From Rhodospirillaceae bacterium (GTDB lineage: Bacteria; Pseudomonadota; Alphaproteobacteria; Rhodospirillales; Casp-alpha2), in contig NZRL01000161.1 of the NCBI GenBank assembly GCA_002696205.1, forward strand, positions 1 to 34,843: a stretch of DNA of 34,843 nucleotides. Direction: 5' to 3'. Of the stretch, positions 32,805 through 34,757 are shown in pieces (within the stretch, counting starts at the first letter, position 1; the number at the start of each line of letters is the position of its first letter). A model generated the notes under the pieces. The model saw only the letters and a list, made by a program, of their open reading frames with translations, made no database searches and was not told the DNA's origin. The position numbers were made by a program, and so were the translations under genes.

Positions 32805-33428
32805 ATGCCGAACGACGCCCCCGACCTACGCCTGGATTTTCCCGCGACGCGCCGCAACCGCGACGCCATCGCCGAAGTGCTGACCCGTGTGCTGCCGCCC
32901 ACGGGATGCGTGCTGGAGATCGGGTCGGGGTCGGGCCAACACATCGTGGGGTTCGCCCGGGCCATGCCGCATCTGGATTGGCAGGCCTCCGACATGGAGC
33001 CTCGCTACCGTGCCTCGGTCGATGCCTGGGCGGCGCACGAGGGCCTGGACTTGTCTCCGGCCATCGCCCTGGACGTGACGCAGCAACCCTGGCCGGTCAC
33101 ACAAGCCGACGCGGTGATTTCGTCCAACATGATTCATATCGCGCCCTGGTCGGCCTGCCTCGGCCTGCTGGACGGCGCGGCCGGAATTCTGCCCGAAGGG
33201 GGCCTGCTCTATCTTTACGGCCCCTTCGCCATCGGCGGCCGTCATACGGCGGAAAGCAACGCCCGATTCGATGCGAACCTGCGCGCCGAAGATTCGTCAT
33301 GGGGCGTGCGGAATCTGGACGATGTCGCCATGGAGGCCCGGACGCGCGGCCTGCATCTCGTCGAAACGGTGCAGATGCCCGCCAACAATCTGTCGGTGAT
33401 TTTCCGCAAACGCGCCGGAATGGCCTAG
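32805..33428 (+). CDS. DUF938 SAM-dependent methyltransferase-like protein
   Basis: 207 residues. The N-terminal RLDFPATRRNRDAIAEVL and motif I (VLEIGSGSGQHIVGFARAMP) mark the DUF938 family of class I methyltransferase folds. DMEPR follows as the acidic loop, and SSNMIHIAPW is a conserved family segment. The substrate is unknown. It is preceded by a short non-coding gap and ends one base from the convergent tetR stop. Confidence 0.9.
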   Translation: MPNDAPDLRLDFPATRRNRDAIAEVLTRVLPPTGCVLEIGSGSGQHIVGFARAMPHLDWQASDMEPRYRASVDAWAAHEGLDLSPAIALDVTQQPWPVTQADAVISSNMIHIAPWSACLGLLDGAAGILPEGGLLYLYGPFAIGGRHTAESNARFDANLRAEDSSWGVRNLDDVAMEARTRGLHLVETVQMPANNLSVIFRKRAGMA

Positions 33429-33429
33429 G

Positions 33430-34023
33430 TCAGGCCGCAGCCACCAGGCGCAGGGGCGCCAGGGCCGCGTCCTTGGCCTCGATCAGGGCCTGTTCCTCGA
33501 CCCCCGCCTTGACCAGAACCCGCAAGCCGAGAAACGCCGCAAGCAGCGCCTGCGCCTGGGCGCGGCGGGCGTCCCTATCGCGGTCGAACGGCGGGGTCGT
33601 GGCCAGGGCGCTGTCGAACAGGGTCACGATACGCCCCATCATGGCCTGGACCTTCTGGCCGGTCCCGGCATCGAGGGCCGCCTGATCGATACTGGCGTTG
33701 CACAGGAAACAGCCGCGACGGTCGCCATTCACGGTTCGCGCGGTGATCGCATTGGTAAACAGGGCATCGAACCGGTCATAGGCACTGTCGCCGGTCTTGA
33801 CCAAGGGCGCGATGCGCTCGGCGATGATGTTCTTTTCATATATATCCAAGGCCGCCAGATACATCGCCCGTTTGTCGCCGAAGGCGCGGTAGAGGCTCTG
33901 TTTGTTGAGGCCCGTCGCGGCCTCGATATCTTGCAGCGAGGCCCCTTCGTAGCCTTTCTTCCAGAACACGTTCATGACGTCCTGAAGGGCGGTATCCGGG
34001 TCGAATGCGCGGGGCCGGGCCAT
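33430..34023 (-). CDS. TetR/AcrR-family repressor
   Basis: 197 residues from the ATG at 34023 with a strong GGAGGA site. The helix-turn-helix is AFDPDTALQDVMNVFWKKGYEGASLQDIEAATGLNKQSLYRAFGDKRAMYL. The ligand domain contains RRGCFLCNAS, a Cys pair typical of the branch that controls redox or carbonyl-stress genes. It is divergent from the AhpD-like gene, with paired operator-like repeats in between. The likely role is repression of that gene and of itself. Confidence 0.93.
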   Translation of the reverse strand: MARPRAFDPDTALQDVMNVFWKKGYEGASLQDIEAATGLNKQSLYRAFGDKRAMYLAALDIYEKNIIAERIAPLVKTGDSAYDRFDALFTNAITARTVNGDRRGCFLCNASIDQAALDAGTGQKVQAMMGRIVTLFDSALATTPPFDRDRDARRAQAQALLAAFLGLRVLVKAGVEEQALIEAKDAALAPLRLVAAA

Positions 34024-34049
34024 GGAAATCCTCCATGAGAAAATAATTG

Positions 34050-34078
34050 TTGACTGACTGGTCCGTAACACATATAAC
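34050..34078 (+). promoter_or_regulatory. Promoter P1 with TetR operator copy 1
   Basis: TTGACT, a 17-base spacer and TATAAC. The spacer holds GACTGGTCCGTAACA (34056-34070), repeated exactly at 34129. On the minus strand TTACGG-N17-TATTTT would serve tetR. A repressor bound here would cover both promoters. Confidence 0.7.
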
Positions 34079-34088
34079 CCCCGCCACC

Positions 34089-34110
34089 AGCCGCTTCAAG
34101 CGGCTTTTTT
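34089..34110 (+). terminator. Intrinsic terminator between the two operator copies
   Basis: AGCCGC-TTCAA-GCGGCT followed by six T. It starts about five bases after the predicted P1 start site, so P1 transcripts should end within about 30 bases and only P2 would feed the AhpD-like gene. Confidence 0.75.
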
Positions 34111-34120
34111 CGGGGCCAGT

Positions 34121-34151
34121 TTGTTACCGACTGGTCCGTAACATAGATAAC
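34121..34151 (+). promoter_or_regulatory. Promoter P2 with TetR operator copy 2
   Basis: TTGTTA, a 17-base spacer and TAGATA. It contains the second GACTGGTCCGTAACA (34129-34143). GTTAC-N10-GTAAC makes a 20-base near-palindrome (16 of 20 positions symmetric). It is the probable promoter of the AhpD-like gene, about 55 bases before its ATG. Confidence 0.7.
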
Positions 34152-34205
34152 GGCGCGGCCGAGAGATCGAGCGCCGACCTCACAGATCCCCGAAAGGAGC
34201 CCATC

Positions 34206-34757
34206 ATGTCCCGTTTGAATCAAGTCAATCCCGACCAGGCCGAAGGCAAGGCCAAGGACCTTCTCGATATCGTCAAAAGCAAGCTCGGCGCCGCCATCAA
34301 CCTGACCCAGGTCATGGCCAACCGTCCGGCCGCCCTGGAGGGCTACCTGCAGTTCTCCGGTGCGCTGGCCGGCGGCGCCTTCAGCCCGAAGGAACGCGAA
34401 GCCATCGCCCTGGCCGTGGCCGGGGTCAATGGCTGTGAATACTGTGCTTCGGCCCATACCTTCATTTCCAAGAACCTGAAGGTCGACGACGCCGAATCCG
34501 TCCGCAACCTGCGCGGTGAATCGAACGATGCCCGGACCCAGGCGATCCTGACCCTGGTCCGCCGCATCGCCGAAAACCGCGGTCATGTTTCCGACGCCGA
34601 TATCGCGGCCGCCCGCGCGAGCGGTCTGGACGACGGCGATATCACCGAAGCCGTGGCGCAGGTCGCGCTCAATACCTTCACCAACTACCTGAACAACGTC
34701 GCGAAAACGGATGTCGATTTCCCGGTGGTTCAGTTGACGGGCCGCGAGGCCGCCTAA
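34206..34757 (+). CDS. AhpD-like / carboxymuconolactone decarboxylase family protein
   Basis: 183 residues from ATG 34206 with AAAGGAG upstream; the longer track ORF runs through the promoter region. The CMD/AhpD signature is EREAIALAVAGVNGCEYCASAH, with the redox pair C77-C80 and H84. A second helical segment (QAILTLVRRIAENRGHVSDADIAAARASGLDDGDITEAVAQVALNTFTNYLNNVAKTDVDFP) is typical of the alkylhydroperoxidase-like branch. Thiol-dependent peroxidase activity is likely. It is controlled by the divergent TetR. Confidence 0.92.
   Translation: MSRLNQVNPDQAEGKAKDLLDIVKSKLGAAINLTQVMANRPAALEGYLQFSGALAGGAFSPKEREAIALAVAGVNGCEYCASAHTFISKNLKVDDAESVRNLRGESNDARTQAILTLVRRIAENRGHVSDADIAAARASGLDDGDITEAVAQVALNTFTNYLNNVAKTDVDFPVVQLTGREAA

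Follow-up and report, generated by a model that had tools for sequence, protein, structure and literature searches.

TetR-regulated divergent genes and two-way promoters

In the TetR paradigm, two operators lie between tetR and tetA (PMC3511530). In Tn10, the regulator and its target diverge across a short gap that contains both palindromic operators, and both promoters are repressed (PMC3511530). The locus described here belongs to a stretch of 34,843 nucleotides from the metagenome assembly of a marine alphaproteobacterium, a Rhodospirillaceae bacterium (contig NZRL01000161.1; the whole stretch is called the window); it shares this plan, but it has an AhpD-like target, a different operator sequence, and a predicted terminator between the operators. 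To our knowledge, no terminator lies between the Tn10 operators. Among characterised TetR proteins of solved structure, the nearest to the window repressor is CifR of Pseudomonas aeruginosa, which is likewise encoded divergently from its target operon, although this operon specifies an epoxide hydrolase rather than an AhpD-like protein. In work of 2012 by Ballok, CifR is said to repress through two binding sites, and we know of no terminator between them. A pair of operators separating tetR from a divergent target is the classic, ordinary arrangement, common also among the relatives considered below. The initial annotation of the region overlooked this, as it did the overlap between the -10 element of its first promoter and the predicted tetR promoter.

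Overlapping -10 elements on opposite strands constitute a bidirectional promoter (work of Warman, Grainger and colleagues; PMC10268837, PMC12825309), in which the two starts are 7-25 bp apart (PMC10268837). Such two-way promoters occur widely in bacteria, and little work has addressed the handling of the unwanted direction. The window resembles them in that predicted -10 elements overlap on its two strands; it differs in that one direction appears to be closed by an intrinsic terminator and in that its transcription is inferred from sequence. An intrinsic terminator between promoter and gene is also the hallmark of leader attenuators, but here there is no space before the hairpin for an alternative structure or a leader peptide.

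The locus and its operators

The locus consists of two divergent genes with 182 bp between their start codons (34023 and 34206). On the minus strand, 33430-34023 encodes a CifR-like TetR-family repressor of 197 aa, which matches TetR_N (PF00440, 2.1e-10) in a domain search and the CifR chains 6nsn (2.5e-15) and 2i10 (1.1e-16) in a comparison with the PDB. On the plus strand, 34206-34757 encodes the presumed target, a CMD/AhpD-like peroxidase-related enzyme of 183 aa that matches PF02627 (6.7e-14) and TIGR01926 (1.3e-22, slightly below its cut-off); the protein is 99% identical to its nearest named record, from an uncultured Rhodospirillaceae bacterium. A rule used for the divergent target of a TetR-family protein is a neighbour less than 200 bp away (PMC3511530), and the tetR/enzyme pair lies within this distance; the detoxification-enzyme gene is probably under the control of the neighbouring repressor. 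(On the other side of tetR, a convergent DUF938 methyltransferase gene, window 32805-33430, ends at 33428, and a single base separates this end from the tetR stop at 33430.)

The gap contains a 15-mer, GACTGGTCCGTAACA, that occurs exactly at 34056 and 34129 (0.03 expected by chance), within a longer repeat (26 nt, 88%, spacing 73). Each copy is the core of a palindrome, TGTTAC.GAC..GTC.GTAACA, which is near perfect in the second. The two candidate operators are O1 (34049-34070, with an 18-mer core at 34051-34068) and O2 (34122-34143, TGTTACCGACTGGTCCGTAACA), in which most of the 22 positions are matched (9 of 11 position pairs); their centres are 73 bp, or 6.95 turns, apart. The right half is common to both, and the left half of O1 is bent towards TTGACT, which is also the -35 element of the predicted promoter P1. 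Because of this double use, the better promoter is at O1 and the better palindrome at O2. In a search of the genome with the 18-bp core, O1 and O2 had no more than one mismatch and all other sites at least two, and the divergent gap thus appears to hold palindromic operators specific to this locus. The motif also recurs in another family (L147, L149 and L150), as TTAC.GAC..GTC.GTAA, beside tetR genes that are about 50% identical and whose divergent CMD genes are 53-56% identical. Since the genome holds no further close copy and the motif recurs beside related tetR genes, O1 and O2 are almost surely operators of the neighbouring TetR; the recurrence links motif and repressor more firmly than the duplication by itself. 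The duplicated TetR operator of the initial annotation is well supported by this comparison, with both 15-mer positions exact.

Promoters around the operators

Promoters were scored with a σ70 matrix of approximate frequencies, so that only the ranks are meaningful; a scan that requires T at position 6 of the -10 element reports neither of the plus-strand candidates. The first of these, P1 (34050-34078), has TTGACT (34050-34055) and TATAAC (34073-34078) separated by 17 nt, with a predicted start at about 34085. Its score of 11.3 makes it the top σ70-like site in the whole 34.8 kb window, a value that shuffling of the intergenic region attains in 0.6% of cases (p 0.006). P2 (34121-34149; TTGTTA at 34121-34126, N17, TAGATA at 34144-34149; predicted start at about 34156) is a weak candidate, whose score of 5.1 is reached by 84% of the shuffles and is not above chance. 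The registers also differ, as the -35 element begins 8 nt before the 15-mer in P2 and 6 nt before it in P1. Of the earlier claim that a promoter surrounds each 15-mer, both spellings hold, but equal rank for the two is not supported.

On the minus strand, the predicted tetR promoter (34071-34099) has TTGAAG (34099-34094), N17, and TATATG (34076-34071). Its score of 6.7 is, taken alone, not above chance (44% of shuffles); its -10 element overlaps that of P1, its -35 element lies inside the loop of the terminator described below, and the predicted P1 and tetR starts are 21 bp apart, within the 7-25 bp given above for two-way promoters. The layout recurs in relatives. In particular, in L147, L149, L150, L151 and L152-L159 a candidate tetR promoter on the minus strand (score 7.2-12.8 where present) shares its -10 region with a promoter directed towards the target, and in most of the relatives with this layout (L147 and members of L150-L159) the -35 elements of the P1 equivalent and of tetR are 47-49 bp apart, the same layout as in the window. 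O1 thus looks as if it lies within a shared two-way promoter, made up of the predicted P1 (plus) and tetR (minus) promoters. Because these relatives share the -10 overlap between the tetR and target-directed promoters, P1 looks like a descendant of the target promoter rather than a fresh duplicate.

A predicted terminator directly behind P1

Between the operators, an intrinsic terminator is predicted on the plus strand (34089-34110), with AGCCGC/GCGGCT arms, a 7-bp stem, a 3-nt loop and a T run at 34105-34110; folding, shuffles and a sister species all argue for it. The hairpin itself occupies 34089-34105, and the first of the six T's pairs with A34089, which leaves five beyond the full stem. 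With this refinement, the perfect hairpin and T run reported earlier are confirmed. The RNA from 34085 to 34111 folds with -10.9 kcal/mol (z -4.65), and a terminator-like site of equal quality is present in 0.3-1.7% of shuffles of the region. A mobile or repeated origin was rejected, the hairpin being single copy in the genome. A search of Rfam gave no family at threshold; the only hit, isrK (E 0.039; 19.8 bits, threshold 50), was taken as chance.

The hairpin begins 4-5 nt past the predicted P1 start. The reading of P1 as a promoter with a terminator immediately behind it is well supported by the comparison below, and it follows from the sequence that P1 would yield only a tiny RNA. The predicted intrinsic terminator stands in the leader, as in an attenuator, but no alternative structure, leader peptide or sensor is found in the roughly 4 nt upstream of it. 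Because this distance leaves no room for an antiterminator, conventional attenuation is unlikely, as is conventional antitermination; antitermination had been offered as a way for P1 transcripts to escape. Another of the earlier suggestions, interference of P1 with the tetR promoter, is possible.

Occurrence of the arrangement in relatives

The comparison set comprised 28 loci of the window's TetR group, representing about 10 independent lineages. These relatives repeatedly carry two operators in the divergent gap: the spacing is 58-73 bp in many and about 26 bp in L149, and L147 and L150 have a single operator. (Where the TetR at a CMD locus belongs to another subfamily, the operator spacing is 94-95 bp, or about nine turns.) Several other relatives have spacings of 6.3-6.5 turns, so helical phasing is no rule.

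A plus-strand terminator between the operators is found in 3 of the 28 loci, namely the window, a sister species (G003) and a more distant genome (G011). In G003 the stem is kept and the T run is reduced by one, to five. In G011 the operators are likewise 73 bp apart, the hairpin and T tract have the window's offset from O1, and the chance of such a terminator per region is 0.07-0.5% by shuffling. Neither the TetR tree nor the sequence between the operators, in which similarity is barely above chance (p 0.05), supports a common origin for the terminators of the window and of G011. Since the TetR of G011 does not group with that of the window in the tree, a shared terminator would represent convergence. 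One extra case in about 10 lineages is suggestive rather than proof, and it may be coincidence.

A possible role for the terminator

The best explanation, to which we give as a whole a probability of about one half, is that the gap controls both an autoregulated tetR and a divergent AhpD-like gene, that O1 and O2 are candidate TetR sites on the same face of the helix, and that the terminator kills the P1 transcript while the enzyme gene relies on P2/O2. In the absence of an inducer, TetR on O1 and O2 would shut both promoter regions; in its presence TetR would be released, and tetR, P1 and P2 would fire. The O1 region would work in both directions, its -10 region serving tetR on the minus strand and P1 on the plus strand, and O2 would act within the weaker P2, which adjoins the enzyme gene. 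P1 would be hard to lose: its -35 element doubles as one half of O1, and the -10 elements of P1 and tetR overlap. Because these parts are shared and hard to remove, P1 would instead be silenced towards the enzyme gene by the terminator directly behind it, which would end the transcript at about 26 nt. The enzyme gene would then answer to P2/O2 only, with the terminator as an insulator against P1.

A fuller version is quite unlikely to be right in every part: a two-way promoter under one repressor, with one direction closed by a start-proximal terminator, any read-through RNA untranslated, dead-end firing that tunes tetR, and a target placed on a second operator-promoter about seven turns away, the whole having arisen twice. 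The sequence features are real and the duplicate operator is ordinary; a start-proximal terminator behind a shared promoter appears to be an uncommon variant. If insulation is its function, a terminator behind the unwanted start and beside a second repressor site would be a simple solution to the unwanted direction; if the terminator is functionless, the locus would be a routine TetR-regulated detoxification pair.

Alternative explanations

In the main rival explanation, the enzyme gene is transcribed mainly from P1, the hairpin acts in the leader as an attenuator that is either leaky or controlled by a factor acting on RNA polymerase, and O2, lying within this leader, serves as a roadblock or looping partner. 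Of the two predicted promoters, P1 is by far the stronger. Where relatives have two operators, the one nearer to tetR carries the best plus-strand promoter, and in L147 and L150 the sole operator-promoter is the equivalent of P1; in the relatives, this equivalent appears to be the likeliest target promoter. Furthermore, because P2 is at chance level and G011 has no good plus-strand promoter at its O2, read-through from P1 might be the true source of the enzyme mRNA. However, neither an antiterminator nor a leader peptide nor a ligand-binding RNA fits into about 4 nt. In addition, the Shine-Dalgarno sequence of the enzyme gene (AAAGGAG, 34193-34199, plus strand) could pair with the right arm and T tract of the terminator in P1 read-through RNA: 34102-34115 is complementary to 34188-34201 (14 pairs, -25.2 kcal/mol, p 0.0035), and in the predicted folds the Shine-Dalgarno sequence is 3% unpaired in this RNA versus 57% in P2 RNA. 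This argues against P1 as the main promoter, though the masking is not kept in G003, where a substitution undoes it in the full fold (51% unpaired). Complementarity to the Shine-Dalgarno region is absent in G011 (p 0.94). A conserved masking switch was rejected on this pattern, and the pairing is possibly a local feature of the window. On balance we consider P1 as main promoter doubtful; the weakness of P2 favours keeping it in view.

Three further explanations were weighed against insulation of the enzyme gene from P1. The terminator could stop plus-strand transcription that enters from the convergent DUF938 gene and runs antisense through tetR, and no good plus-strand terminator is present between the DUF938 end (33428) and the tetR end (33430). 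In G011, however, DUF938 is not in that place; beyond tetR lies an rhlE-like helicase gene that runs in the same direction as tetR, and no convergent gene feeds the terminator. DUF938 read-through was therefore rejected as a general reason for the terminator, and for the window it is improbable. P1 and the hairpin could also be functionless by-products of overlapping constraints (the operator half-site and the tetR -10 and -35 elements). This agrees with the location of the P1 -35 element within O1 and of the candidate tetR -35 element in the loop, and with the presence of the hairpin in only 3 of 28 loci; it is decidedly improbable given the P1 score (p 0.006) and the terminators at the same offset here (p 0.003-0.017) and in G011 (p 0.0007-0.005). 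Least credible is a short P1 RNA with a task of its own, either pairing with the enzyme ribosome site through the complementarity above or holding RNA polymerase on the shared promoter against tetR, since the complementarity is missing from G011, the masking is gone in G003, and a terminated RNA would keep the pairing bases inside its own hairpin.

Distribution and related loci

Among eight genomes of the same genus (G000-G007), the window-type tetR is present in two at E 1e-22; most of the others have a CMD gene that is about 42-51% identical, several of them with another TetR. This patchy distribution of tetR and CMD suggests horizontal exchange. No copies of tetR were found on plasmids at 1e-20, and no relative was found on viral contigs.

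Some related loci have hairpins of their own. Just past the single operator of L147 and L150, where the CMD mRNA is predicted to begin, there is a GC-rich hairpin without a T tract; the two genomes differ at one of its pairs, which is G-U in one and G-C in the other. At L092, a related tetR is divergent from a glutaredoxin-like gene (identified by eye), and its two operators, 71 bp apart, have a GGCGGC/GCCGCC hairpin between them, again without a T tract. At L093, three operator-like palindromes lie upstream of a related tetR.
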